Below are positions 3,408 to 54,310 of a stretch of 64,000 nt of DNA, piece after piece. This DNA is from Cupriavidus sp. EM10 (GTDB taxonomy: Bacteria > Pseudomonadota > Gammaproteobacteria > Burkholderiales > Burkholderiaceae). The position numbers and the translations under genes were made by a program. The stretch lies in NCBI RefSeq assembly GCF_018729255.1, contig NZ_CP076060.1:1302001-1366000 (forward strand), given 5' to 3'. Within the stretch, counting starts at the first letter, position 1. The number at the start of each line of letters is the position of its first letter. The notes under the pieces were generated by a model. That model was not told where the DNA came from. It made no database searches and was given only the letters and a program-made list of their open reading frames with translations.

Positions 3408-3929
3408 TCAGGCGGCCAGCGCGTGTTGTGCGCTGCGGCCGGCGTGCTCGGCCACCACCAGCGATAACTCGGCCGTGGTGCGGGCGGCCTGGCGGCTATG
3501 GCGTTCGGCGTGATCGTCCAGCGTGGCGGTCATGCGGTGCAGCAGGCTGGTCAGCGCGGTGCGCTCGGCCGGCGCCAGATGCGAAATCGAGACCGAATGC
3601 AGCGCGCGCACGGCCAGCGCGGCGCGTTCCAGGCGCGCGCAGGCTTCGAAGGCGATCTGCGGCGTGCCGTCGCTCGGAAACTCCAGCCAGCCATCGGCAT
3701 GGAGTTCGCGCAGCAGCCGCTCGGTCTGCGGCACGTCCAGGAAAATCGCGCCCTGGCACGGCTCGCCGCGCGTGAATTCGCCGGTGCGGATGGCGCGCAG
3801 CAGCAGCCATTTCGGATAGTTCAGCCCCGAGACGCTCAGCGTCTGTTCCAGGGCGCTTTGCCACGCGGTGACGGCGTCGACAAGCGAGAGCACGACAGGC
3901 TCGTGGATTTCGAGTGCTTTGGGCTGCAT
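3408..3929 (-). CDS. MarR-like winged-helix regulator
   Basis: A 173-residue protein starting MQPKALEIHEPVVLSLVDAV. The middle reads like a winged-helix regulator (LNYPKWLLLRAIRTGEF, then TERLLRELHADGWLEF as the likely recognition helix and wing) between flanking helices that would form a dimer interface, as in MarR proteins. A longer frame is open upstream, but ATG 3929 is preceded by a good GGGAGA ribosome site 10 nt away, and the upstream residues are not conserved-looking. It lies just upstream of gdhB on the same strand, separated by a terminator, so it may act on its own promoter or on gdhB; that link is inference. MarR membership is judged from fold-like pattern, not from a signature. 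Confidence 0.6.
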   Translation of the reverse strand: MQPKALEIHEPVVLSLVDAVTAWQSALEQTLSVSGLNYPKWLLLRAIRTGEFTRGEPCQGAIFLDVPQTERLLRELHADGWLEFPSDGTPQIAFEACARLERAALAVRALHSVSISHLAPAERTALTSLLHRMTATLDDHAERHSRQAARTTAELSLVVAEHAGRSAQHALAA

Positions 3930-4166
3930 TTGCTCAGGTCTCCCATATAAGGGTAGTTGCCGCCTGGACACTTCTTGGGCCGGTGCATTGGCCGGCCCGG
4001 GCGGCTTGGGCGCCTGCCTCTCGTTCGGGCCGGTCGCTCTCATTGAAAATCGGTAGGCGAACACTAGCAGCAATGTTGGGACATTTGCGTGACAGGTCGG
4101 GTATGTCCTAGTCAATCTTTTGGTGGAGGCGGCGAGCCTGCCGCATGGTGTTTTGCCGTGCAATTG

Positions 4167-4193
4167 AAAAGGCCCCTGCCGGGGCAGGGGCCT
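4167..4193 (-). terminator. Rho-independent terminator of the exported repeat protein
   Basis: On the minus strand a GC-rich stem (aggcccctgcc / ggcaggggcct) is followed by TTTT. It lies about 40 nt after the stop of the 12-residue-repeat protein. The rest of the gap up to the MarR-like gene (about 3930-4166) shows no convincing gene. Confidence 0.7.
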
Positions 4194-4231
4194 GGAGTCG
4201 CTGGCAGCGCGCGATGCGCTGGCCTGCGGAG

Positions 4232-4642
4232 TTATTGCTTCTTGGCGCCGTCGGTGTACGGATCGGCCTTGCCGGACTTCGCGCCGTCGAGGTACGGATC
4301 GGGCTTGCCGCTCTTCGCGCCGTCCAGGTACGGGTCGGGCTTGCCGGACTTGGCGCCGTCCAGGTACGGGTCGGGCTTGCCGGACTTGGCGCCGTCGGTG
4401 TACGGGTCGGCCTTCTTGTTCGGGGCCAGGTCCGAGCGCGTCGACTTCTTCGCGCCATCGGTGTACGGATCGAACTTGCCGGACTTGGCCGGATTCTGGT
4501 TCGGATTCGCCTTGTTCTTGGTATGGCTGCCGCTGTAGAGATCGCCGCCGTCCGTGTAGTTCTTCTGCGCGTGGGCCAGTTGCACGGCGCCCAGGGCAGT
4601 CAGGGCGGCAACGATCAGCGTCGGTACGGTCTTCTTCAGCAT
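4232..4642 (-). CDS. Exported small protein with six DPY[T/L]DGAK repeats
   Basis: 136 residues. Residues 1-25 form a signal peptide (MLKKTVPTLIVAALTALGAV, then QLAHA) with a likely cleavage after AHA. The mature part is hydrophilic and lysine-rich and contains six copies of DPY[T/L]DGAK. The last five are in strict 12-residue register (spacer SGKP or SGKA), that is, a 36-bp DNA tandem repeat at about 4235-4415. Two ATGs are adjacent (4645, 4642); an AGAGG ribosome site fits 4642 best. I do not recognise the family. The acidic Asp/Tyr/Gly repeats could bind cations or a surface polymer, but nothing in the sequence proves this. The copy number is likely to vary between strains. Confidence 0.75.
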   Translation of the reverse strand: MLKKTVPTLIVAALTALGAVQLAHAQKNYTDGGDLYSGSHTKNKANPNQNPAKSGKFDPYTDGAKKSTRSDLAPNKKADPYTDGAKSGKPDPYLDGAKSGKPDPYLDGAKSGKPDPYLDGAKSGKADPYTDGAKKQ

Positions 4643-4820
4643 CATTATCCTCTCGAGTGAGGGCCGGACAGTGGGACCGGCCAGAAACAGAAATCTGCAG
4701 AAAATGCCTGGATCGATAATGACACTGTACCGGGATTTGTGACGGCCTGCCGCCAGGAGTTGTAGTAACAATACTCGGGCGACGGGCACGTCACGTTATG
4801 GCGACGCCATCATCAGGCTG

Positions 4821-7245: not shown

Positions 7246-8627
7246 ATGACCCTGATCCTCCAGCACGCCGACGTACTGGTCACCATGGACGCGCAACGCC
7301 GCGAAATCGCCGATGGCGCGCTGGTGTCCAACGGCCCCGCCATCGAATGGGTAGGCGCCACCGCCGACCTGCCCGAGACCTATCTCCGCATGATCGACGA
7401 CGGCACCGCCGAGGTGGTGAACATGCGCGGCCACGTGGTGATGCCCGGCCTGGTCAACACCCACCATCACATGTACCAGAGCCTGACGCGTGCCGTGCCG
7501 GCCGCGCAGGATGCCGAGCTGTTCGGCTGGCTGACCAACCTGTACATGATCTGGTCGCACCTGACGCCCGAGATGATCCGCGTGTCGACGCAGACGGCCA
7601 TGGCCGAGCTGATGCTGTCCGGCTGCACCACCACCAGCGACCACCTCTACCTGTATCCGAACGGCTCGAAGCTCGACGATTCGATCGATGCGGCGCGCCA
7701 GATCGGCATGCGCTTCCATGCGGCGCGCGGCTCGATGAGCGTGGGCCGCAGCCAGGGCGGGCTGCCGCCCGACGTGGTGGTCGAGCGCGAGGCCGACATC
7801 CTGCGCGACAGCCAGCGGCTGGTGGAGCAGTACCACGATGCGTCGCGCCACGCGATGCTGCGCGTGGTGCTGGCGCCGTGCTCGCCGTTCTCGGTGTCGC
7901 GCGACCTGATGCGCGAATCCGCGACGATGGCGCGCCACTACGGCGTGTCGCTGCACACCCACCTGGCCGAGAACGACAACGACATCGCCTACTCGCGCGA
8001 GAAGTTCGGCATGACGCCGGCCCAGTATGCCGAGGACCTGGGCTGGGTCGGCCACGATGTCTGGCACGCGCACTGCGTCAAGCTCGACGACGAGGGCCTG
8101 GCGCTGTTCGCCCGCACAGGCACGGGCGTGGCGCATTGCCCATGCTCCAACATGCGGCTGGCGTCGGGCATCGCGCCGGTTCGCCGCATGCGCGACGCGG
8201 GCGTGCCGGTGGGGCTGGGGTGGATGGCAGTGCGTCGAACGACGGCGCGCATATGCTGGGCGAGGCGCGCCAGGCCATGCTGCTGCAGCGGGTGGGATTT
8301 GGCCCGGCGGCCATGAGTGCGCGCGAGGCGCTGGAGATTGCCACGCTGGGCGGTGCCCGGGTGCTGAACCGCGACGATATTGGCGCGCTGGTGCCGGGTA
8401 TGTCGGCGGACATCGTCTCGTTCGACATGTCGGCCGTGGGATTCGCCGGCGGCGGCCACGATCCGGTGGCGGCGCTGGTCTTCTGCACGCCGGCCAATGT
8501 CTCGACCAGCATCATCAACGGCCGCGTGGTGGTGCGCGACGGGCAGTTGCGTACGGTCGACCTGCCGAACGTGCTGGCCGATCATCGCCGGCTGGCGCGC
8601 ACGCTGTTCGAGAGCACCAGGGTTTGA
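7246..8627 (+). CDS. 8-oxoguanine deaminase-like amidohydrolase (apparent frameshift)
   Basis: Zn-dependent amidohydrolase of the AtzA/TrzN/8-oxoguanine deaminase group, expected to deaminate an oxidised or modified purine in the cytoplasm. Visible metal and active-site blocks are HHH in PGLVNTHHHMYQSL, HTHLAEND, the HC after VGHDVWHAHC, and VDGSASNDGAHML. The start MTLILQHADVLVTMDAQRRE at ATG 7246 has GGAG about 11 nt upstream. The frame breaks at 8217-8220: the sequence gives CTGGGG-TGGATGG where one more G restores GLGVDGSASNDG and the reading to the stop at 8627. I regard this as a homopolymer sequencing error. Product naming rests on family memory; a related hydroxypurine or triazine substrate is possible. 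Confidence 0.82.
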
Positions 8628-43724: not shown

Positions 43725-43768
43725 CGAACACCGGCGCATGCAGACCCGAACACCGGCGCATGCAGACC
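43725..43768. repeat. Perfect 22-bp tandem duplication
   Basis: Two exact head-to-tail copies (43725-43746 and 43747-43768) of a unit beginning cgaacaccggcgcatgc. It lies in the gap between the NUDIX gene and the tRNA-fMet remnant, just outside the integrated element. There is no coding content in 43590-43788. Confidence 0.75.
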
Positions 43769-43851: not shown

Positions 43852-43902
<51 letters not shown>

Positions 43903-43999
43903 ATCTACTTGTTTCTACTAGTTGGCCGATGTTGGTAGTTGTCGGAGAATCAAAGACTTAGAGCTATGGTGGTGGTTTGTTGTTGGTGGCGGTTTTCTG

Positions 44000-44025
44000 C
44001 CGCCAGCGCCCAAGAACCGCCCAAA
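44000..44025. promoter_or_regulatory. Candidate integrase arm-type site, left
   Basis: A 26-nt string that includes ccagcgccca and ends cgcccaaa matches 21 of 26 positions at 54150-54175 near the other end. It lies between attL and the integrase start, where arm-type sites of tyrosine integrases occur. Confidence 0.45.
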
Positions 44026-44036
44026 CCGGAGTTTCT

Positions 44037-45350
44037 ATGTCGAAAAACAAGGTCAATATCACCCGCGAGTTCCTGCGCGGCCTTACAGCCACCGGCAAGT
44101 TTCAGGAGTACGCCGACGCGGACCTGACCGGCTTCAAGGTGCGCGTGCTGCCAAGCGGCAGCATCACCTTTACCGTGCGTTACTACAAGCCGGACGGCAG
44201 CGAAGGCCGCAGGGCCATCGGCAAGTACCCCGCCATGAGCGCAAGCGACGCCCGCGAAGCCGCTCGCCGCGAACTGGAGCAGACGCCGACCAAGCAGGAC
44301 ACGCCCGCCGTGGTCGAGGAAAAGAAGCGCCGCCGCGCCGAGAGTGTGCGTCGCGCGCATGGCGTGCCGAGCCTGCGCACATTCCTTGACGGCGATTACA
44401 CCGACTACCTCGAAGCCAACGGCATCGCCACGGCGAACGCCAGCCTGATCCGTTCGTCATTTCCTGACCTGCTCGACCGGGGCCTCGATGAACTCAGCGC
44501 ATGGGTGATCGAAGGCTGGAAATCGAAGGCAGCGAAGACCGGCATCAAGGCGAAAACCATCGCGAACAAGCTGCACGCGTTGCAGGGGCTGCTGCGGGTG
44601 GCGGTGAAGGCGGGTCACATCACGGACAACCCGGCAAAAGATGTCGAGCGCAATGGCAAGGCTGATGTCGTCGTGCGCTATTTGGGAAAGAACGACCCGC
44701 TTGAGCGCGAGCGCCTATACGCGGCGATGGAAGCCCGCGAGGAAGCGAACCGTGACGCCCGCCACCGCACGATCGCCCATCGACGGATGCGCAAGCAGCC
44801 CGCGCCGCCCTCGCTGCGCAACGTGCGCTTCACCGATCACCTGCAGCCGTTGGTGGTGACCGCGCTGCATACCGGGATGCGCAAGGGCGAACTGCTGGCG
44901 CTCGAATGGGAGGATGTCGATCTCGATCTGCGCACGATCCACGTGCGCCGTGCCGTGGCCAAGTCAGACAAGCGGCGCGACATTCCGATCAGCGACGAAC
45001 TGCTCGATGTGCTCACGGTATGGAGGCCGCTCGCGCACAAGGTGTACGTGTTCGGCAACGCGGAAACGGACGCACCGCTAACGGACTTCAGCGCCGCATG
45101 GGAGGCACTTCTCGAAGCCGCGCAGATCACGAACTTCCGCTTCCATGATACGAGGCACGACTTCGCAACCCGCCTCGTCGCGCAAGGCGTCGATCTCTAC
45201 AAGGTCAAGGCACTCCTCGGGCATAGCAGCTATGCGATGGTCGAGCGGTACGCGCATATCGATCCCGAACATCTTCACGCCGCGATCAACACCGCGTTCA
45301 ACGCGCCGCGCAAGGCCGCGAAGAAGGCTCGTCGTGCGGTGGCAGCATGA
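44037..45350 (+). CDS. int: Tyrosine integrase of the integrated element
   Basis: 437 residues, P4-integrase-like layout: N-terminal DUF4102-like arm-binding region (LTGFKVRVLPSGSITFTVRY), SAM-like core-binding domain (about 110-205), catalytic domain with R282 (HTGMRKGELLALEWEDVDLD), H370-x2-R373 (FRFHDTRHDFATRL), H396 (LLGHSSYAMVERYAHI) and nucleophile Y405. ATG 44037 is the first sensible start after attL. Its stop overlaps the next ATG (45347, ATGA). All catalytic residues are intact, so it may be active. Confidence 0.95.
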   Translation: MSKNKVNITREFLRGLTATGKFQEYADADLTGFKVRVLPSGSITFTVRYYKPDGSEGRRAIGKYPAMSASDAREAARRELEQTPTKQDTPAVVEEKKRRRAESVRRAHGVPSLRTFLDGDYTDYLEANGIATANASLIRSSFPDLLDRGLDELSAWVIEGWKSKAAKTGIKAKTIANKLHALQGLLRVAVKAGHITDNPAKDVERNGKADVVVRYLGKNDPLERERLYAAMEAREEANRDARHRTIAHRRMRKQPAPPSLRNVRFTDHLQPLVVTALHTGMRKGELLALEWEDVDLDLRTIHVRRAVAKSDKRRDIPISDELLDVLTVWRPLAHKVYVFGNAETDAPLTDFSAAWEALLEAAQITNFRFHDTRHDFATRLVAQGVDLYKVKALLGHSSYAMVERYAHIDPEHLHAAINTAFNAPRKAAKKARRAVAA

Positions 45351-45817
45351 GCGGGAAGCGTTCGACGCTCAAGGCGCGCTATCTGCAGATCGTGGCCGAG
45401 GTTGACGGCACCCCTGTCCCGCCGCGCCGTGCGCCCCGCATCGTGACGGTCGGCGAGGCTCGCCTGATCGTCGACGACCTGTTTGATGAAAACGACCCCG
45501 AGACCGCGCGCGCAGAAATTGCTGGCCTGCTGGCGCGCTCGCTTTCGGGCGAGGCCATGTATCACCACCTCGTGCGCACCCACGCGCGCAATCTCCCTGA
45601 GAAGCGCAAGGGCAGCAAGCCGAGGACCAACATCACCCCGGCCATCCGTGATGCCATCGTTCGTGCCGACCGCGACCTGCAACGTGCCGGGAAGAGTGTC
45701 AAGAAAGATCGCAACGCTGAACTCGCAAAGCGGTTCGGCATCCCGGTCGACACCATCCGCAAGGTCACACCACAATTGGGAAGGGGACGACCGAGGAAAA
45801 CGCAGGACAAACCCTGA
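45347..45817 (+). CDS. Hypothetical protein coupled to the integrase, C-terminal HTH-like
   Basis: 156 residues, basic. The start overlaps the integrase stop (ATGA), so the two are coupled. The C-terminal part has a helix-turn-helix-like string (NAELAKRFGIPVDTIRKVTP) followed by a basic end (GRGRPRKTQ, AT-hook-like). It could be a recombination directionality or regulatory protein. No known family recognised. Confidence 0.65.
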   Translation: MSGKRSTLKARYLQIVAEVDGTPVPPRRAPRIVTVGEARLIVDDLFDENDPETARAEIAGLLARSLSGEAMYHHLVRTHARNLPEKRKGSKPRTNITPAIRDAIVRADRDLQRAGKSVKKDRNAELAKRFGIPVDTIRKVTPQLGRGRPRKTQDKP

Positions 45818-45842
45818 CGACCCGGCAACACAAAAAATATTT

Positions 45843-45870
45843 AATGGCGTGCTTTGGTGCGCCATTTTTC
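45843..45870 (+). terminator. Terminator after the integrase operon
   Basis: Stem aatggcg / cgccatt with an 10-nt loop and TTTTTC; about 25 nt after the stop of the coupled gene. Confidence 0.7.
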
Positions 45871-45913
45871 TTCTGCCATCCTGTCGTTACCCACCCAACC
45901 GCGAGAGGCAAAC

Positions 45914-46150
45914 ATGGGCAACGAGGAAAGCCAGCAAGCCGCGCCCTTCGGTGCGATGACCGTCAATCAGTTTTGCGAGGCGATGCAGATCGACCGCTCT
46001 ACCTTGTGGAAGCTGCGCCAGCGCGGCGAGGCTCCAGAGATTCTGTTCGTGGGCCGCAAGGTGCTGATCACCTACGCCGCCGCTCGCGAGTGGGAACAGC
46101 GCATGATCGAGCGCAGCCGTGCAGCGAAGGCCGACGAGCAGCCCGCATAG
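45914..46150 (+). CDS. AlpA/excisionase-like HTH protein
   Basis: 78 residues. MTVNQFCEAMQIDRSTLWKL, then RQRGEAPEILFVGRKVLITY, is the MerR/excisionase-type winged helix of AlpA and phage Xis proteins. AGAGG lies 6 nt before ATG 45914. Probable excision or transcription control of the element. Confidence 0.75.
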   Translation: MGNEESQQAAPFGAMTVNQFCEAMQIDRSTLWKLRQRGEAPEILFVGRKVLITYAAAREWEQRMIERSRAAKADEQPA

Positions 46151-46289
46151 CGCAGGGCAGCACCCGCAGCACCGAAGGTCGCATCAGTCGGCCTCGTGAA
46201 AACATAGCTTCGTGCCGAAGTAAGCGTCGAGGGCTTCCATTTAACGCGTGCGCCAGTTCGAGCGCGCGCAAACAACATGGGAGTCTTAA

Positions 46290-46412
46290 ATGATCCACCG
46301 CAGAAAAAAGAATGCCCGCGTCGAGGGTGCGGGCGAGAAGGTGTGCGCATCTGCAAGGCACGCCGATCGTAGCCCTAACGATCTTCGCGCGCAAGCGCAG
46401 CGGAGGCCGTGA
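46290..46412 (+). CDS. 40-residue basic small protein, coupled to the Topo VI-A-like gene
   Basis: ATG 46290 after GGGAG; sequence MIHRRKKNARVEGAGEKVCA and 20 more residues, rich in Arg/Lys. The stop (46410-46412) overlaps the ATG of the next gene by one base (TGATG), suggesting coupling, so it may be a leader peptide. It is too short for a family call. The rest of the gap 46151-46289 has no gene I can support. Confidence 0.45.
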   Translation: MIHRRKKNARVEGAGEKVCASARHADRSPNDLRAQAQRRP

Positions 46413-47284
46413 TGGGACGCGGAATGCATGAGGTATCGAAGATCATCATCAATGCGGCCATCGATGTCCTGGCCGAAATCAGGCCGACCACGGTGCGTTC
46501 GGTCTGCTACCAGCTTTTCACGCGCGGCCTGATCGCGAACATGAGCAAGAACGAGACGGCGAAGGTATCGCGCCTCCTGACGGGTGCGCGCGAACGCGGT
46601 GAGATTCCGTGGCACTGGATCGTAGACGAGACTCGCGGGGTCGAGCAGGCGGCGCAGTGGCGCGACGGTGTGTCGTTCATTGATTCGGTCATGAGCCAGT
46701 ACCGCAAGGACTACTGGCGCGAGCAGCCGTATCACGTTGAAGTTCTCAGCGAGAAGGGCACCGTGCGCGGCGTGTTGGCCAGCGTCCTCGATGAGTATGG
46801 CGTGGCGTTTCGCGTCATGCACGGTTTCGGAAGTGCGACCGTACTCAACGACATGGCCGGCGCGATTGCGAGCCGCGACAAGCCGACAGTGCTGCTGTAT
46901 GTCGGTGACTGGGACCCGAGCGGCCTGTACATGAGCCAGGAGGACATGTTCGATCGCCTGATTGCATATGGGGCGATTGACTTCACTCTCCAGCGAATCG
47001 CGCTCACCGAAGCCGATGTGAAGCGCGGGGACCTTCCATATTTCGAAGCCACCACGAAAACGGGAGACGCCCGGTATCAGTGGTTCGTGCAGCGCTATGG
47101 CGACCGCTGCTGGGAACTCGACGCGATGAACCCGAACGATCTTCGCCAGCGTCTTGACGATTCGATCCTCGAATACCTCGATGTCGATGCCTGGAATCAC
47201 ATGATCGAGATCGAGCGCGCCGAGCGCGAATCGATGGAGGGCTTCATGGGGCAATGGAAGCGCACCTTTGGAGCCTCGTCATGA
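46412..47284 (+). CDS. Stand-alone Topo VI-A/Spo11-like protein (Topo Mini-A-like)
   Basis: 290 residues. The N-terminal winged helix carries RPTTVRSVCYQLFTRGLI, which resembles the catalytic-Tyr region (R-x-I-Y-Y) of topoisomerase VI subunit A and Spo11; the Tyr is residue 33. The C-terminal part has a Toprim pattern: Glu in HVEVLSEKGTVRGVL, then VLLYVGDWDPSGLYM (D-x-D-x-x-G). There is no subunit B (GHKL ATPase) gene in the element. ATG 46412 follows GGAGG at 5 nt. Such B-less A-subunit homologues are known in mobile elements under the name Topo Mini-A, as I recall; DNA cleavage in replication, recombination or defence is possible. Alternative: a Toprim protein of unrelated function. Confidence 0.55.
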   Translation: MGRGMHEVSKIIINAAIDVLAEIRPTTVRSVCYQLFTRGLIANMSKNETAKVSRLLTGARERGEIPWHWIVDETRGVEQAAQWRDGVSFIDSVMSQYRKDYWREQPYHVEVLSEKGTVRGVLASVLDEYGVAFRVMHGFGSATVLNDMAGAIASRDKPTVLLYVGDWDPSGLYMSQEDMFDRLIAYGAIDFTLQRIALTEADVKRGDLPYFEATTKTGDARYQWFVQRYGDRCWELDAMNPNDLRQRLDDSILEYLDVDAWNHMIEIERAERESMEGFMGQWKRTFGASS

Positions 47285-47336
47285 GCCAGCGATTCTATTT
47301 TGCACCTTGGTCGAAAATAGGAAACGGGAGACCGTC

Positions 47337-48446
47337 ATGAGCGCCGGTCGACCAGTGAACAAGGACAACCTGAGTGCCCGCGAGGAAGCCGTGCGCGAAC
47401 TTGAACGCTATCCGTTCCCCGACAAGCGGCAAGCCGTCGCGTTCGCTCTCGTGCGCTTCATTGCGAACGACACCCGCATGGTGTGGGCGTCCGCACTGCG
47501 CATCGCGCATCGCGCGGGCGTGAGCGAGGACACCGCGCAGCGAGTGCTCGAAGAGTTCGACCGCACCGGCTTGACCGTTCGCGTCGATGACTTCGAGTGT
47601 CCCCGCGAAGCCGACGAGGACAGGCGCGGTGGCAGCGTCGCCCGCCGCATCGATATCGATCGACTGTCGGAACTTTACCCCGGCAACGTGGAGTGGACCG
47701 AGCATCGAACACGGCGTCGTGCGACGCACAAAAGCCGCGCGCAAAGGAAGCAAGTTGCCGCACGGTGCGGTGACTTCGACGCGCCGACCGGCAGCGAAGT
47801 TGCCGCACCTTGCGGTAACTCAGAAGGGAGTGCGACGCGTGCCCCACGCGTGGATGACGCGTCGAAGTTGCCGCAAATGGGCGTCGAAGTTGCCGCAAAC
47901 GACGATCGAAGTTGCCGCAAATCAGGTGCGAAGTTGCCGCAAATGGAGTGCGAAGTTGCCGCTGGGTGCGGTACGAGGGTTTTAGAGGGTTTTGAGGGTT
48001 TAAAGCAGGGGACAGTCAGGGGCCCTCATGGCCGGGCGGGCCTAGTCGACTTCGCTGCGCGAAGCTCGACCTGTGTGCGTCCCGCAAACGGCGCGCATGG
48101 CACTGCACAAAATTCGCTGGCGATGATCCGCACGCATCCGGTCACGCGTTCCCTCGACGAGGTACTTCGTCTACGGGCCGACGATCTGCTTCAGGTGCTC
48201 GCCAGCTATCACGAGTTGCCGACCAATGCGACGGCGCTCAAACGCGTCGCCTGCGCGCTGGCCAACCTGGCTGTCGCGCGTTGCACCACCGCGCAGATGC
48301 GATCGGCTTGCATTCGCGTGCACGAACGTGGCAGCACCGGCTGTTCGAAAGCCCTCACGGAAGCGAAGCGCGCGATGAAGCCTCGCGCCGATGATGAAGA
48401 CATACCGTTCGCGGTCGCCTACCCACCACCGGGAGTGCTGCAATGA
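47337..48446 (+). CDS. Replication-initiator-like protein with embedded iteron origin
   Basis: 369 residues. N-terminal winged helix (KRQAVAFALVRFIANDTRMV, then RIAHRAGVSEDTAQRVLEEF DR-TGL), as in phage O-type initiators. The middle (about residues 135-225) is low-complexity because it is encoded by repeated DNA. The C-terminal 100 residues are helical (LRADDLLQVLASYHELPTNA). ATG 47337 has GGGAG at 7 nt. ssb follows, overlapping by ATGA. Placing the origin within the initiator gene is the lambda O arrangement. No sequence signature proves initiator function; the inference rests on the iterons and on the coupled ssb. Confidence 0.6.
   Translation: MSAGRPVNKDNLSAREEAVRELERYPFPDKRQAVAFALVRFIANDTRMVWASALRIAHRAGVSEDTAQRVLEEFDRTGLTVRVDDFECPREADEDRRGGSVARRIDIDRLSELYPGNVEWTEHRTRRRATHKSRAQRKQVAARCGDFDAPTGSEVAAPCGNSEGSATRAPRVDDASKLPQMGVEVAANDDRSCRKSGAKLPQMECEVAAGCGTRVLEGFEGLKQGTVRGPHGRAGLVDFAARSSTCVRPANGAHGTAQNSLAMIRTHPVTRSLDEVLRLRADDLLQVLASYHELPTNATALKRVACALANLAVARCTTAQMRSACIRVHERGSTGCSKALTEAKRAMKPRADDEDIPFAVAYPPPGVLQ
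47752..47974 (+). repeat. Iteron array AAGTTGCCGCA, 22-bp spacing
   Basis: Seven copies of AAGTTGCCGCA start at 47752, 47797, 47865, 47887, 47909, 47931 and 47953; the last has T in the final place. The last five are exactly 22 bp apart, two helical turns. Since 22 is not a multiple of 3, the copies are read in different frames (KLPQ, EVAA, SCRK), so the DNA, not the protein, is under constraint. Confidence 0.88.
47975..48004 (+). other. Candidate DNA-unwinding element
   Basis: Three copies of GAGGGTTT(T) at 47975, 47985 and 47994 directly after the last iteron, ending in TTTAAA. T-rich direct repeats next to iterons are the usual plan of phage and plasmid origins. No DnaA box is evident. 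Confidence 0.6.
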
Positions 48447-48838
48447 TCGACGCACTCGTAAGCGGCAAGCTCTACGGCAAGCCCGTCTGCAAGACCGGCC
48501 AGAGCGGACGCTCCTTCGTGACGGCGAAGGTGCGCGCGGCGACCGGCGGCGACGAGGCGGTGTTCGTCAACGTGATCGCGTTCAGCGACACGGCGAAGGA
48601 CGCGCTGCTCGAACTTGATGATGGCGACAACGTGGCGCTGGCGGGCACGCTCACACCGAAGGCGTGGCTGGATAAGCACGGCGATGCCAAGCCCGCGCTC
48701 GACCTCGTGGCTCACGCGGTGCTGACGGCTTACCACGTGAAGCGCAAGCGCGCTGCTGTGCAGGCTGACGGCAATGGCAGGGCGCAGCGTCAGGGCGCGC
48801 CTGCGTTCGCTGACGACCCGCTCGATGAACCGTTCTGA
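48443..48838 (+). CDS. ssb: Single-stranded DNA-binding protein (SSB)
   Basis: 131 residues. OB-fold pattern (MIDALVSGKLYGKPVCKTGQ, FVTAKVRAATGGDEAVFVNV, GDNVALAGTLTPKAWL) and an acidic tip DDPLDEPF like the SSB C-terminus that recruits replication proteins. The start overlaps the initiator-like stop by ATGA, so initiator and SSB are made together. Shorter and divergent from chromosomal SSB. Confidence 0.82.
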   Translation: MIDALVSGKLYGKPVCKTGQSGRSFVTAKVRAATGGDEAVFVNVIAFSDTAKDALLELDDGDNVALAGTLTPKAWLDKHGDAKPALDLVAHAVLTAYHVKRKRAAVQADGNGRAQRQGAPAFADDPLDEPF

Positions 48839-48848
48839 GGAGCCGCGC

Positions 48849-49118
48849 ATGGACGACGACGAATTCGAACGGCGCATCCGTGCCACCGCGATCGCAATCC
48901 GAGAATGGTGCGGGCGCAACGACGTCGCGATTGCAGGCGACGACTCGGTTTGCGAGAGCGCGGCATCGCGGATTCTTGGCTACCGCTCGGGTGATGCGCT
49001 CCGCAAGCAGGCCGCACAGGGACGCAACCAGATTCCTTTCAGGCTGCGCGGCAACGTGCGCTTCTATCGCGTGGTCGACCTGAGCCGCACCATCGAAACA
49101 AGCTGGAACGGTGAATAG
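48849..49118 (+). CDS. Small hypothetical protein
   Basis: 89 residues, MDDDEFERRIRATAIAIREW; a helical, possibly HTH-like protein (SAASRILGYRSGDALRKQAA) ending in a short basic beta region (RLRGNVRFYRVVDLSR), reminiscent of small phage DNA-binding proteins. AGGAG at 7 nt before ATG 48849. Ten nucleotides after ssb. No family recognised. Confidence 0.6.
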   Translation: MDDDEFERRIRATAIAIREWCGRNDVAIAGDDSVCESAASRILGYRSGDALRKQAAQGRNQIPFRLRGNVRFYRVVDLSRTIETSWNGE

Positions 49119-49221
49119 CAGGGCAACTGGCGACGAACGCGGAAATATCGGCATCGCTTTTTTGCTGATCACGGACGATCATGCAAGGCAGTCCGAACCA
49201 ACATCACAGCGGAGGCAGACC

Positions 49222-50214
49222 ATGATCGTCGGCAACACCTACGTCAAGTTCCTGAAGTGCATGGCGAAGGCGGGTGGTGACCCGCTTGCCGCTGCCGAGA
49301 TTCACCGCAAGGACTACGGCGACGGCCCTGCGCTCGGCCTGATCCAGAAAGCGATCATCACCACCGGCAACCTCGGTGGCGACGCTGCATATCAGGCGGC
49401 GGTCAATGACTTCGTGCTCGGTGTGCAGACCTATGACGTGATGGCCCGCATCAATGCCCTCTCACCGCTGCACTCCATCCCGGTGCGCACGCGCGTGCTG
49501 GTCGAGAGCGAGGAGCCGGTCGCGCAGTGGATCGGTGAAGGCGAGATCAAGGTCGCCTCCGGCGCATCGTTCGAGGAACTGACCATCCAGCCGGAAAAGG
49601 CAGCGGGGCTGATCGTTGTGACGAAGGAGGTCGTGCAGCTCGCGACCGACGCTGCGGAAAAGTCGCTCACGCGCAGCCTGCAACGCGCGGTCGCCAAGAT
49701 CACCTCGGCGGCTGCGTTCGCTTCGCCGTCTGTTGCGGGTGCGCCCGCGTCGCTGCTCGACGGTGCCACCGAGATCGCGGCAACGGGCGATGTGCAGGCG
49801 GACATGAGCGCGCTGGTCGCTGCCTTCGCGGGCGATATCGAGCGCGCCGTGCTCGTCATGAGCAGCAACACGGCCATGACGCTCGCGCTGCAGGTGGCGA
49901 TGGTCGGCGGCGCGGGCACGCTCGGCGTGAGGGGCGGCACGTTCTGCGGCCTGCCGACCGTGGCCTCGGCGGACGTGCCCGACTCGATCGTGGCGCTGGT
50001 CGATGCCAGTGGCGTGACCTATGGCGATGACGGCGTCCGGCTCGACACGGCAACGCAGGCAACCGTGACGATCGACGATGTGCAGCACAGTTTGTGGCAG
50101 GAAAACCTGATCGGCTTTCTGGCCGAACGCTTCGTGTCGTGGTTGCCTGCGCCCGGTGCCGTCGCGTATCTGAGCGGCGTTTCGTGGACGTCAGGTCTGG
50201 GAGGCACGCAATGA
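49222..50214 (+). CDS. HK97-fold phage major capsid-like protein
   Basis: 330 residues. The core block matches the HK97 capsid family: SIPVRTRVLVESEEPVAQWI, then GEGEIKVASGASFEELTIQP, then EKAAGLIVVTKEVVQLATDA, and the C-terminal A-domain with LGVRGGTFCGLPTVASADVP. No long delta/scaffold region is present at the N-terminus. GGAGG stands 6-7 nt before ATG 49222. There is no protease, portal, terminase or tail gene in the element, so alone it cannot make a packaged virion. It may form satellite capsids or alter those of a helper. Confidence 0.78.
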   Translation: MIVGNTYVKFLKCMAKAGGDPLAAAEIHRKDYGDGPALGLIQKAIITTGNLGGDAAYQAAVNDFVLGVQTYDVMARINALSPLHSIPVRTRVLVESEEPVAQWIGEGEIKVASGASFEELTIQPEKAAGLIVVTKEVVQLATDAAEKSLTRSLQRAVAKITSAAAFASPSVAGAPASLLDGATEIAATGDVQADMSALVAAFAGDIERAVLVMSSNTAMTLALQVAMVGGAGTLGVRGGTFCGLPTVASADVPDSIVALVDASGVTYGDDGVRLDTATQATVTIDDVQHSLWQENLIGFLAERFVSWLPAPGAVAYLSGVSWTSGLGGTQ

Positions 50215-50537
50215 GCGATACGCAGCCCGAAGTGATCCAGCGTTTTGCCGATGAACTCGCGTACAACATCGTCGGTTCGCTGCAGCGGCTGAACCTCGAC
50301 CTGTCCTCGCAGCGCGGATATGGCAGCACGCGCGAGGAACGTGCGGGCCTGTTCGAGTTCACGCAGCAGCGCATCAACGAGAGCATCGCGCAGCAGCGCA
50401 AGACCCTCGCGCCCGTGCAGTCGGTCGAACTGGCACCATGTCCGAACAGCAGCGAGAAGGGGATGCTGTCGATCCGCCTCACGGACGGCACCCGGCACCG
50501 CTATGTCCTGCGCGCCTGCGCCACGCTCATCGATTGA
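50211..50537 (+). CDS. Hypothetical protein coupled to the capsid gene
   Basis: 108 residues, MSDTQPEVIQRFADELAYNI; starts at ATGA overlapping the capsid stop. Helical first half, beta-rich end (GMLSIRLTDGTRHRYVLRAC). Probably part of the capsid operon; role unknown. Confidence 0.65.
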   Translation: MSDTQPEVIQRFADELAYNIVGSLQRLNLDLSSQRGYGSTREERAGLFEFTQQRINESIAQQRKTLAPVQSVELAPCPNSSEKGMLSIRLTDGTRHRYVLRACATLID

Positions 50538-50549
50538 TGGAGGACCGTG

Positions 50550-50861
50550 ATGGCCGAACAAAAATGGGTGCTTGAGCACGAGATGGACCGCGAAGCCGTG
50601 GTCGATCTCATGGGCAGCTACCTGAAGTCCGAGGACGAAGCCGAGCAATGGGCCGCGTCGATGCTGACCGAAGACGAGGTGCTGCTCGCTTCTCGCGGGC
50701 TGGCGTTACGACTCGTGCGTAATGCGGTGGGCAACGGCCATCAGGTAACGCGCCTGTTCTCGCTCGTGCCGAATGGCTGGAAGCGAGGCGATCCGATGCG
50801 TGTCGGCATCGAACTGGCTGACGGCACCACCGTCATCTTTCCCGATCGCGGGAGCAAATGA
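50550..50861 (+). CDS. Hypothetical protein of the capsid operon
   Basis: 103 residues, MAEQKWVLEHEMDREAVVDL; acidic helical N-terminus, then VTRLFSLVPNGWKRGDPMRV and a beta end. ATG 50550 follows GGAGG. It overlaps the next gene by ATGA (50858). No family recognised. Confidence 0.62.
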   Translation: MAEQKWVLEHEMDREAVVDLMGSYLKSEDEAEQWAASMLTEDEVLLASRGLALRLVRNAVGNGHQVTRLFSLVPNGWKRGDPMRVGIELADGTTVIFPDRGSK

Positions 50862-51100
50862 CCATGACGAACGTCCAGCCGATCTTTGTTCCTCGCGACC
50901 TGCAACGCGTGCTGCGCACCGAGCGCGACGCCGCGATGATCGTGGGCAACGACCTCGCCGCCGACCTGATGCGTCTGCTTGCCGTGGCAGGCGAGCATCA
51001 GCAGGACGTCTACATTGCCGTGCTCGATGACGGACGAGGCAAGCCGTCGCTCGTCGCGCGGGTCGCAGGCAGCGCAGGTGATTGGACGCGCGTGTGCTGA
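50858..51100 (+). CDS. Small hypothetical protein of the capsid operon
   Basis: 80 residues, MTMTNVQPIFVPRDLQRVLR; translationally coupled to the preceding gene. Last member of the run that begins at the replication genes. The 278-nt stretch 51101-51378 downstream shows no convincing gene. Confidence 0.6.
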   Translation: MTMTNVQPIFVPRDLQRVLRTERDAAMIVGNDLAADLMRLLAVAGEHQQDVYIAVLDDGRGKPSLVARVAGSAGDWTRVC

Positions 51101-51378
51101 CGCAAGTGGAAGCGGCGCAAGAGAGGCGCGGCGAGGCTTGGCGGGGGCCGAGTGCAGCACAGGTCGATCGGATGCGTCATCGCAAGCCCTCCTCAATTCT
51201 CAAAACGCGAGATCTCGAACCGGGGTCGTCCCCGGCTTGCCCCGTCCCGCAAGGGTGTGTGATGCGCAGCGATGTCCGGGTTGTCCGGCGCGCGCGGCGG
51301 ACCCAAATATCCGCGCGCAGTGCTCCCGATGTGAAAATTGGCCGTGCGTGGCGAGGTGCCCGCACGGCATTCTTTGCC

Positions 51379-51771
51379 CTACGCGTTGACGTGAACCCTG
51401 TCCCGCCCGATCAGGCCGAGGGCCATCAACCTCGGTGCGAGCAGCTGCTTTGCGTGCGCGTAGTCGGCCTGCTGGCTGTTCGGCCAGCGCGGATTCGTCC
51501 ACACGCTCGCGCCCGCCGCGAAGTTCTTCACCGCCACGTTGATCGCCACGCGCTCGCGCAACGGCAGCGCCATGATGAGCGGGTCGATCGCCCGCGCATT
51601 GCGCTCTCGCAGGTCGCGGTCGATCGCGTCATCGATATCTTCCGGCGTGGCCCACTGGTTGGTGCTGTGATACGCAGTGGCGAACGCAGCATCGCGCGGA
51701 TAACCCGCTACGGGTTGCCAGCCGCAGCCCCATGCGTGCCAGTCGGTGAGCAGACGATCGATCGCATCCAT
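51379..51771 (-). CDS. Small phage-type protein, possibly Q-like antiterminator or regulator
   Basis: 130 residues on the opposite strand: MDAIDRLLTDWHAWGCGWQP, DDAIDRDLRERNARAIDPLI and MALPLRERVAINVAVKNFAA. The order (small W-rich start, D-R-[ED] helix, PL-x-R-x-A helix) resembles short antitermination/regulatory proteins of Burkholderia and Ralstonia phages. GAGG at 6 nt before ATG 51771. The similarity is from memory and weak. The plus-strand open frame here is its antisense shadow. Confidence 0.5.
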   Translation of the reverse strand: MDAIDRLLTDWHAWGCGWQPVAGYPRDAAFATAYHSTNQWATPEDIDDAIDRDLRERNARAIDPLIMALPLRERVAINVAVKNFAAGASVWTNPRWPNSQQADYAHAKQLLAPRLMALGLIGRDRVHVNA

Positions 51772-51835
51772 GACGGGCCTCGGGATAGTGTTGGCAAACG
51801 CCTGCGATTATCACGCGCATCAGGAGGCAACCGCC

Positions 51836-52243
51836 ATGTGGAAGCGCCGTTACACCCATGATCGCGATGCCGCCACCCTGCCGCGCCACAACGGTGGCAT
51901 CACGCGGGCGATGCTCGCGGGCGTGCCGCTCACACCGAAGCCCGGTCACAAGCCGCGCGGTGGGTATCACGTTGAACGGCAGTTCGCGCAGCCGTCGAAG
52001 CCAACGCGCATCCGCAAAAACAGCGAGCGTGACGTGGTGCCGCCCGTTGAACCGCTGCCCGCACCGCGAGCGCCAGCATCGCCGCCGCCCGGCATCGCAG
52101 TGTTCGATGCGATCGCTCGCGGCCTAACGGACGACTCCGTGTCGCTCTGGTCGAGCCGCAGGGACATGGAGGCACGACGCCGCCGCTCGGACACGGCCAT
52201 GCGCCGCCTCACGATCATCGAACGGCCTGCGCCGCCGTGCTGA
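51836..52243 (+). CDS. Basic hypothetical protein
   Basis: 135 residues, MWKRRYTHDRDAATLPRHNG; Arg/Pro-rich and mostly disordered in the middle (PPVEPLPAPRAPASPPPG). GGAGG 7 nt before ATG 51836 supports translation. Divergent from the preceding minus-strand gene with 64 nt between, so a shared promoter region is likely. No family recognised. Confidence 0.58.
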   Translation: MWKRRYTHDRDAATLPRHNGGITRAMLAGVPLTPKPGHKPRGGYHVERQFAQPSKPTRIRKNSERDVVPPVEPLPAPRAPASPPPGIAVFDAIARGLTDDSVSLWSSRRDMEARRRRSDTAMRRLTIIERPAPPC

Positions 52244-52282
52244 TCTGCGCAACTGCGACAGACTCACTACGCATCGGGAAGG

Positions 52283-52663
52283 TTATGCAGCGTTGAGGGT
52301 TGTCCGCCGCGCATGCTCGAATACGCGGGCGCGCTCGCTTTCAACCAGCGCACGCTGTCGCTTGATGGAGACCCGGTACATGTTCACGCCGATCGCCGCC
52401 GCGTATTCGTCAGGCCGCGTATGCCGGAAACGTTCGAAGAACTCGTCCGCTGGCATCCCGTTGTCACGCGCCAGCAGCACGCCGTAATCGATGCATCTTG
52501 CATCGTCGATAAGCCGCACTGCCTCCGCGAGCGCGACGTACCGCTCGGGCAGACGGATATCCTTGGGGAACAGCGCGTGGAACTTCTGGTAGGGAATCAA
52601 CGCGCGTTTGCGCGCCGCACGCTGGAGTGCATCCGCAACGAGTTGCACGGTCTCGGGTTTCAA
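52283..52663 (-). CDS. Hypothetical helical protein, TTG start
   Basis: About 126 residues from TTG 52663, which has GGAGG at 5 nt; the open frame continues upstream to 52891 but without a comparable ribosome site. Helical throughout, with a possible HTH near the end (AAAIGVNMYRVSIKRQRALV). Function unknown. Region 52664-52903 is the divergent promoter region with the next gene; I cannot call promoters in it with confidence. Confidence 0.5.
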   Translation of the reverse strand: MKPETVQLVADALQRAARKRALIPYQKFHALFPKDIRLPERYVALAEAVRLIDDARCIDYGVLLARDNGMPADEFFERFRHTRPDEYAAAIGVNMYRVSIKRQRALVESERARVFEHARRTTLNAA

Positions 52664-52903
52664 GCTCGCCTCCGTCAGAACACCGCCGATGAAATGAGGG
52701 TGGGGCTTTACGTTCGTCTTACGATAAACAAAGCTAGCAAACGAAAGGTGTGCTTTCAAGTGCTCTTGTGCAAACCGTTTAAAACATGAGCGGTCGTTCA
52801 GTGTAGTCACGCAGGAGCGCTTCCGGCCCTTTCGAGAGGTCGCGCCGCGCTGATCGGTATCGCCTGTAGAATTCCCGCGCAGCCTCACCACCGGGAGAAC
52901 AAG

Positions 52904-53392
52904 ATGGAACAGGCGTATGCAGCGATCGGACGCGCGGTGATCGCAATGCAGATGTTCGAGGCGTGCTTCGTATCAGTCCACGAGGGCTTCAGGATGATCA
53001 CCGACGAAGCCTATCGCGAGGCGACGGGCGGCATGATCGACGAGAAGAAATACAAGACCGCGACGGCAAACGTGGTGAAGGCCCTTTCCAGTCGAGAGCA
53101 GATCGCCGCCGATCTGGAGGACCGGCTGAACGTCCTGATCGAGCGCCGCAACGAACTCGTGCACCGCTGGTTCATGCAGCACGGCTGGCCGTGGCCTGAT
53201 ACAAACAACGCCGCCGACTATGCGCCCGTCGTGGAACTCGCCGAGTGGGTCAGGACAGAAGCAAACGCGATCACGCACATGATGGCGGGCTATATGGTGA
53301 AGCACGCGCATCCCGAAGCCGCCGAGAAAGATCCCAAGGCATATCGGCAGGCGATGGCTGAGTTGTTCCACAAGCTCCATGTGCAGGAGTAG
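52904..53392 (+). CDS. Hypothetical protein with RN-x3-H motif (HEPN-like)
   Basis: 162 residues, MEQAYAAIGRAVIAMQMFEA; all-helical. The segment LEDRLNVLIERRNELVHRWF contains R82-N83-x3-H87, the R-x4-H motif of HEPN domains (ribonucleases or nucleotide-binding partners in toxin and defence systems). Preceded by GGGAGAACAAG. The next gene begins 9 nt downstream and carries a similar motif. No nucleotidyltransferase partner is nearby. HEPN membership is inferred from motif and helicity only. Confidence 0.5.
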   Translation: MEQAYAAIGRAVIAMQMFEACFVSVHEGFRMITDEAYREATGGMIDEKKYKTATANVVKALSSREQIAADLEDRLNVLIERRNELVHRWFMQHGWPWPDTNNAADYAPVVELAEWVRTEANAITHMMAGYMVKHAHPEAAEKDPKAYRQAMAELFHKLHVQE

Positions 53393-53400
53393 AGACGCCC

Positions 53401-53976
53401 ATGCTCGTGACGAAAACCGATGCCGCGCGTCGGCAACTCGTAACTGCCATTCGCCTGTTCTTCGACGGCGGCGACCGCGTGTCCATCTACTCGCTGGCCT
53501 CGAACGCATGGGAGGTGATCGACGTGCTCTGCACAAGCGCAGGCGTCGATAGCTTCTCCAAGCAGGCGCGCGAGAACCTGCCAGCCGGACACACGCTCAA
53601 GCACTACATCAACGAGCCGTGCCGGAACTTTTTCAAGCACGCCGAACGAGACCCGGACCCGGATAGCTCGGTCGAACTCAACGAGGCCAACGTCGCCGCC
53701 ATCCTGTTTCTGGCAGTGGAGGACTACATGCGGCTTCGCCAAGGCGGGCCTGTCGAGGCGCAGGTCTTTCAGGCGTGGTTCATTGCCGTCTTTCCCGAGA
53801 AGGTCAGCGAGGACGACCCGGTGGCGCAATCGAAACTCGACAGCGCCAAACTCGCCTTTCCCGGCATTGCCACGGCAACGCAGGCCCAACAGGTGGAGAT
53901 GGGGCGGCGGGTGCTGGAGGACGCGCGCCAAGATGCCGACCTTGCGGCGGACCCGAAGACCGAGCCGAGCATGTGA
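53401..53976 (+). CDS. Hypothetical protein with RNFFKH motif
   Basis: 191 residues, MLVTKTDAARRQLVTAIRLF; helical. CRNFFKHAERDPDPDS contains R75-N76-x3-H80, as in HEPN proteins, and NFFKHAERDP itself is a string I recognise from a widespread family of unknown proteins. It probably forms an operon with the preceding gene and is the last gene before attR, a common place for cargo. Function unknown; a defence or toxin role is speculative. Confidence 0.55.
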   Translation: MLVTKTDAARRQLVTAIRLFFDGGDRVSIYSLASNAWEVIDVLCTSAGVDSFSKQARENLPAGHTLKHYINEPCRNFFKHAERDPDPDSSVELNEANVAAILFLAVEDYMRLRQGGPVEAQVFQAWFIAVFPEKVSEDDPVAQSKLDSAKLAFPGIATATQAQQVEMGRRVLEDARQDADLAADPKTEPSM

Positions 53977-54087
53977 CGCGCGCTGGCGAAGCGGGGCCGG
54001 AATGCGGGCCGTGGCGGGCCTGCTGCTAGCCGGGAGGTAGGAAGGGGTGTTCGAAAGGGCCGGGGCCGTTAGAGGCCCGGAAAGCAC

Positions 54088-54111
54088 AAAGCCCGCTCGA
54101 AGGCGGGCCTT
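54088..54111 (-). terminator. Element-borne terminator downstream of tRNA-fMet
   Basis: Stem gcccgc / gcgggc with a 6-nt loop, TTTG on the minus strand and CTT on the plus. It lies about 120 nt past the 3' end of tRNA-fMet and could replace the native terminator that was carried off to the left end; it may also end the plus-strand cargo operon. Confidence 0.45.
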
Positions 54112-54149
54112 GGTTCGCTGGCTTGGGCGCTACTTTTGGCCGTTTTTGG

Positions 54150-54175
54150 CGGCCAGCGCCCATATAGCGCCCAAA
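54150..54175. promoter_or_regulatory. Candidate integrase arm-type site, right
   Basis: Matches 21 of 26 positions of 44000-44025 in direct orientation. It also pairs with an inverted ttgggcgcta at 54123-54132, so several copies of a cgcccaa unit lie near attR. Confidence 0.45.
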
Positions 54176-54233
54176 TTCGAAGAAAATCCTGTTCCTGAAA
54201 ATGGGCTAAATCGCGGAAAGCCTTACTGGGCTT

Positions 54234-54310
<77 letters not shown>

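Follow-up and report, generated by a model that had tools for sequence, protein, structure and literature searches.

Where does replication begin in a small integrated element that carries a capsid gene? The question is raised by a 10.4-kb element of Cupriavidus sp. EM10, which lies between two 51-bp repeats (96% identical to each other) in a 64,000-nucleotide stretch of contig NZ_CP076060.1 (positions 1,302,001 to 1,366,000), hereafter the window, whose coordinates we use throughout. Our literature searches found no paper on the replication of these capsid-bearing satellite-like elements. We propose, with a probability of about 0.86, that the origin of this one is 47752-48070, in the linker-coding part of the element's own initiator-like gene. 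The winged helix of the initiator would bind AAGTTGCCGCA sites, arranged as two dyads and, downstream of them, five iterons in phase; this phased complex would bend or strain the DNA and open the adjoining GAGGGTTT repeats; and the host replicative helicase would then be loaded with the help of the initiator's C-terminal domain and of the element's single-strand binding protein (SSB).

The gene holds exact copies of AAGTTGCCGCA at 47752, 47797, 47865, 47887, 47909 and 47931. A first-pass annotation, made from the letters alone, had counted seven copies; six are exact, and the seventh, AAGTTGCCGCT at 47953, has one mismatch and ends in T. A recount of positions agrees with its further statements that five of them (copies 3 to 7) are exactly 22 bp apart and that three GAGGGTTT repeats (47975, 47985 and 47994) and TTTAAA (47999-48004) follow directly, all within one open reading frame (ORF). 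It had also placed the iterons on one helical face: the constant phase stands, and 22 bp gives nearly, not exactly, one face. Absent from it are inverted half-sites that pair with copies 1 and 2 to form the dyads, which may be regulatory and have counterparts, judged by eye, in the related loci L031, L006 and L019. A shorter inverted TGCGGT directly follows copy 7, and no inverted partner is evident for copies 3 to 6. Between the dyads and the array (47835-47862) lie three ACGCGT sites in 11-bp steps, a triplet that we also see by eye in L006 and not in L031 or L002.

This array is neither a chance occurrence nor driven by the protein. Period 22 is kept by five copies here, by at most two in 300 codon shuffles and by at most three (in 2 of 500) in synonymous shuffles that preserve the protein, and AAGTTGCCGC occurs seven times, against at most three in 500 synonymous shuffles. 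Of the iteron 11-mer, the 6.66-Mb genome contains nine exact copies, six of which lie here. Because 22 is not a multiple of three, consecutive units do not repeat the same peptide; they are read in three frames (KLPQ, EVAA, SCRK), as had been stated. The stretch from the first site to the end of the putative unwinding region corresponds to codons 139-223; in the modelled linker (residues 140-257) the predicted local distance difference test score (pLDDT) is below 50.

Further, the DNA itself is conserved, as the first-pass annotation had argued from the frames. Between the window and L031, its nearest relative with DNA, the iteron cores are identical at 55 of 55 positions and the spacers at 33 of 55; codons at identical residues have changed in 35 of 90 cases within residues 1-135, as opposed to 7 of 48 in the iteron and unwinding region (Fisher p 0.003). 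Beyond the unwinding region, a block, GGGGCSCTCATNGCCGSGCNGGCTAGTC, aligns across seven genes, with one extra base in the window's copy and partial departures in L006, L020 and L021. Relative to the codons, the C of its CTCA is at offset 1 for the window, L006 and L021, 0 for L031, L002 and L019 (for L019, whose frame is interrupted, in the open piece holding iterons and block), and 2 in L020, so the block is kept in three frames.

By calculation, the DNA that follows the array also melts easily. Within the gene, the 35-mer of lowest stability begins at 47970, directly 3' of the iterons; in the element as a whole, 55 of the 10,397 windows of that size are less stable. The A-T content of the region is moderate, at 18 of the 31 bases of 47976-48006. 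We compared this with 17 genes that have at least three copies at 20-24 bp, the window's included, and lambda O, taking the end of the lambda array from annotation and L019 as a DNA stretch. In 11 of these 18 genes, lambda among them, the least stable 35-mer has its start between −5 and +60 nt relative to the end of the array, where 1.1 would be expected.

Three protein searches, each scoring the best 7,994-7,996 candidates by shared words, returned at least 11 homologous proteins, seven from Paraburkholderia and one from Cupriavidus metallidurans (P0001), of which P0009 to P0011 cover at most 12% of the query; P0005 is from P. youngii and P0009 from P. saeva. Genome searches gave matches in 13 of 144 genomes of one genus and, in a sample of the family that contained the own genome and also members of that genus, in 17 of 398. 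Many of these matches are weak and confined to the winged helix (profile positions ~20-105); narrower queries matched 3 of 299 and 1 of 298 genomes. We scanned 28 genes (26 loci from the search, the window and L006) for at least three consecutive 10-mers, one mismatch being allowed and every period from 12 to 45 considered. The controls were 101 stop-to-stop ORFs, non-overlapping and 250-550 codons long, from the window, L006 and L031-L037, initiator regions excluded. A phased array is present in 19 of the 28 genes, where it stands just after the winged helix, and in 2 of the 101 controls; the period is 21-22 bp in 17 of the 28 genes and in none of the controls (Fisher p 3e-14, an overstatement since several of the genes are close relatives and the rows are not phylogenetically independent), the other two genes having 17 bp (L022) and 36 bp (L023). 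Because the winged helix led to most of the weak homologues, the arrays did not select them. Iteron sequence and a large part of the protein vary among the homologues, with at least six iteron sequences (AAGTTGCCGCA, CAWTTACCKCA, GAACTTGCCCG, ACGCTCCCTCA, AAAGGGTGCAA and CGGGGTGTCA), and the layout is kept. The comparison that the first-pass annotation had called for, whether phase persists while protein changes, thus came out in favour of its claim.

In P0002, P0003, P0005 and P0006, related short peptides (LPQ/LPH; VTA/VAA/FTA; YRK/CRK/YRI/YRT) recur in shifted register; in P0001, whose winged helix differs, the peptide pattern advances in steps of 7-7-8-7 residues, which, read by eye, would correspond to a 22-bp array of another sequence. 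Among relatives of the initiator, homologue P0006 matches phrog_270 (E 1.9e-6), L021 matches phrog_391 (E 5.9e-8), and L025, a distant homologue with the same plan, matches phrog_678, 'replication initiation O-like' (E 9.5e-47). Searched against viral structures, the whole model gave 11 matches at E ≤ 0.001, with low TM-scores; most are phage proteins of the helix-turn-helix kind or proteins without a name, and the tenth in rank is a putative replication protein O.

Several observations weigh against an origin here. The window protein lies below every Pfam cut-off, and its best PHROGs match is phrog_270 at E 0.027. Comparison of 16 of the element's ORFs with Pfam and PHROGs identified none as a helicase, primase or loader. 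Nine of the 28 genes have no array of three: L042, L043, L045 and L047 carry two AAAGGGTGCAA copies 21 bp apart, below the array threshold; L021, a closer relative, has irregular copies; and in L028, L039, L050 and L051 no iterons were seen in the scan. In 7 of the 18 genes (L020, L024, L025, L026, L040, L048 and L006) the least stable 35-mer lies upstream of the array end; in each of these a downstream window ranks within the first 29. Synonymous changes between the window and L006 number 1 of 13 in the post-unwinding block and 26 of 78 in the comparison set, a difference that is not significant (p 0.10), and covariation in the palindrome that follows the block does not exceed that in shuffles.

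The anatomy suggests that the locus works as lambda O and its origin do. According to two papers (PMC5043065, PMC7466680), the lambda O gene has iterons and an A-T-rich tract in its middle, and O dimers bind inverted-repeat iterons. As in lambda and the lambdoid Shiga toxin (Stx) phages, the iterons of the window lie midway along the initiator gene, in the linker that joins the DNA-binding domain to the C-terminal one, and the gene's least stable DNA comes directly after them; with lambda O as control, the proposal of a lambda O plan in the first-pass annotation is supported. Unlike lambda, whose record gives iteron spacings of 20, 24 and 23 bp, the window keeps strictly to 22 bp; its iteron sequence differs, its protein is not recognised as O by sequence, most of its iterons are direct half-sites, the dyads standing apart upstream, and its unwinding repeats are G/T-rich AGGGTTTT. 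The gene after the initiator encodes SSB, where lambda has P, and no P-type loader lies beside the initiator. Because no counterpart of P was recognised, the C-terminal domain or host factors would have to recruit the helicase. DnaA-box-like sites (at most one mismatch to the consensus) number five in the window and none inside the element, in agreement with a lambda-like route that does not depend on DnaA. On this scheme the initiator would bind its sites, the DNA would melt in the cell, the helicase would be recruited and the origin would serve after excision. We regard the system as a new initiator and iteron family of the known lambda O type, not as a new mechanism. In L019 (reverse strand), three of the four iterons at 1984-2060 have the form CTCCCTCANNNYGAGGG, which resembles the lambda iteron TCCCTCAAAACGAGGGA, and by eye three of the four look like full dyads.

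Two other systems bear comparison. Burkholderiaceae genes of the phrog_678 'O-like' kind (L025 tested; L024, L026, L027 and L040-L048 share its iteron) likewise have a winged helix and then iterons at 21-22 bp within the gene, several with a repeated melting region after them; theirs are AAAGGGTGCAA and AACCATC-type repeats, unlike the AAGTTGCCGCA and GAGGGTTT of the window. Across L024-L027 and L040-L048 the iterons are AAAGGGTGCAA- or AAAGGGTGCA-like, and in several of these genes a dyad stands between them and the AACCATC-type repeats. Iteron plasmids (RepA, RepE, pi), as described in PMC5043065, share direct, helically phased iterons beside a melting region. Unlike in those plasmids, with iterons outside the rep gene and DnaA boxes, the origin proposed here lies inside the initiator gene, in an element with no DnaA-box-like site.

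The repeats might instead be operators through which the protein represses or autoregulates its own gene, replication starting elsewhere. We consider this improbable: the sites sit ~415-640 nt inside the coding sequence, the least stable DNA follows the array in most of the compared genes as it does in lambda, and the relatives fall in 'replication initiation O-like' families. Plasmid centromeres also use phased repeats, and the element has a capsid gene, so a partition, packaging or helper-recognition site comes to mind; against such a role, to which we give very little weight, no ParA, ParB or terminase was recognised in the 16 ORFs, and the site lies in an O-like gene beside that for SSB and leads into the least stable DNA of that gene. 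That a repeated peptide gave rise to the DNA repeat as a by-product can practically be set aside, because, although the region lies in an open frame and periods divisible by three do exist (36 bp from 4241 of the window; some of the viral contigs L009-L013), the three reading frames already contradict it, synonymous shuffles lose the array, and cores are more conserved than spacers.

If the origin lies here, as we favour, it would supply one for a group of capsid-bearing satellite-like elements, and the family would supply, as a natural series, DNA-binding domains together with the sites that match them, so that direct tests could be made of initiator specificity, of the need for the 22-bp phase and of helicase recruitment without a loader. 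Two messages, a protein and an origin, would be kept in one stretch of DNA through out-of-frame phasing. The features of the element are listed in Table 1.

Table 1. Features of the element and of its putative origin, in window coordinates
Feature	Position	Strand	Remarks
attL-like repeat	43852..43902		copy of tRNA-Met 3' part; 51 bp, 96% to attR
Tyrosine integrase	43977..45350 (ORF bounds)	+	PF00589, E 1.3e-28
Excisionase-like helix-turn-helix protein	45854..46150	+	phrog_66, E 4.7e-6
phrog_6247 protein ('DNA topoisomerase')	46409..47284	+	E 8.4e-57
Initiator-like protein	47337..48446	+	winged helix ~residues 26-113; linker 140-257 (low confidence); helical C-terminal domain
Dyad 1 of iteron half-sites	47752..47776		minus-strand match with 2 mismatches at 47766
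Dyad 2 of iteron half-sites	47797..47821		minus-strand match with 2 mismatches at 47811
Five iterons	47865..47963	+	at 47865, 47887, 47909, 47931, 47953, exactly 22 bp apart
Putative unwinding element	47970..48004		GAGGGTTT three times and TTTAAA
Conserved post-unwinding block	48019..48047		GGGGCCCTCATGGCC...TAGTC
Imperfect palindrome after block	48045..48070		weak evidence
SSB	48443..48838	+	PF00436, 26.3 bits (cut-off 26)
HK97-type major capsid protein	49111..50214 (ORF bounds)	+	PF05065, E 2.4e-11; phrog_10, E 4.5e-25
attR-like repeat	54233..54283		overlaps tRNA-Met gene 54234-54310 (-)

Judged by its genes, 43852-54283 is most likely a satellite-like island at tRNA-Met with a capsid gene. 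It is small and integrated, with an integrase, a capsid gene and an incomplete phage gene set (terminase and portal, like ParA and ParB, were not recognised among the 16 ORFs), and so resembles a capsid-forming phage-inducible chromosomal island (cfPICI); the absence of terminase and portal refers to the window element. Its own genome has no second copy of the capsid gene. The SSB that the first-pass annotation assigned to the element is there, directly after the initiator, with a PF00436 score just above the cut-off. The phrog_6247 protein, whose gene adjoins the initiator on the other side, has no Pfam or PDB match and no relative by tblastn in the 13 loci searched.

Related elements of ~10 kb form a group with it (L006, L031, L032, L034 and L035). 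L006, from Paraburkholderia sp. Tr-20389, is 10.47 kb long and lies at tRNA-Met between 50-bp repeats; L035 (9.64 kb, tRNA-Met) and L032 (9.75 kb, tRNA-Thr) also bear such end repeats, which were looked for and not found in L031, L033 and L034. By tblastn, the capsid gene has relatives in L006, L031, L032 and L034 and none in L033 or L035. Between L006 and the window, the integrase is 90% and the capsid protein 86% identical and the initiator 49% (residues 1-264); the L006 initiator gene has different iterons in the same layout, and no tblastn relative of the window's SSB or phrog_6247 protein is found in L006. Because integrase and capsid are close while the initiator differs and these two relatives are absent, the replication module varies among otherwise similar elements.

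Tentatively, an origin inside its initiator gene might form an exchangeable cassette in such satellites: winged helix and iterons would change together, and the phase, the melting repeats and the post-unwinding block (CTCATNGCCGSGCNGGCTAGTC plus palindrome, conserved as DNA in three frames) would stay. The block would then be a new kind of part for an origin, perhaps a site at which host helicase or primase is loaded, free of DnaA and of a phage loader. The pattern CTCATNGCCGSGCNGGCTAGTC, built from L002, L019 and L031, was sought in one genus and in viral contigs: it occurs in 3 of 144 genomes of the genus, in those three genes and nowhere else there, and not in the viral contigs. The folding of the palindrome is unusual in some genes only.

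Two further repeats lie elsewhere in the window. Five copies of the 36-bp repeat stand at 4241-4396, inside the stop-to-stop ORF 3411-4790, and since this period is divisible by three they are probably a peptide repeat. An exact 22-bp tandem duplication occupies 43725-43768, just outside the attL-like repeat.
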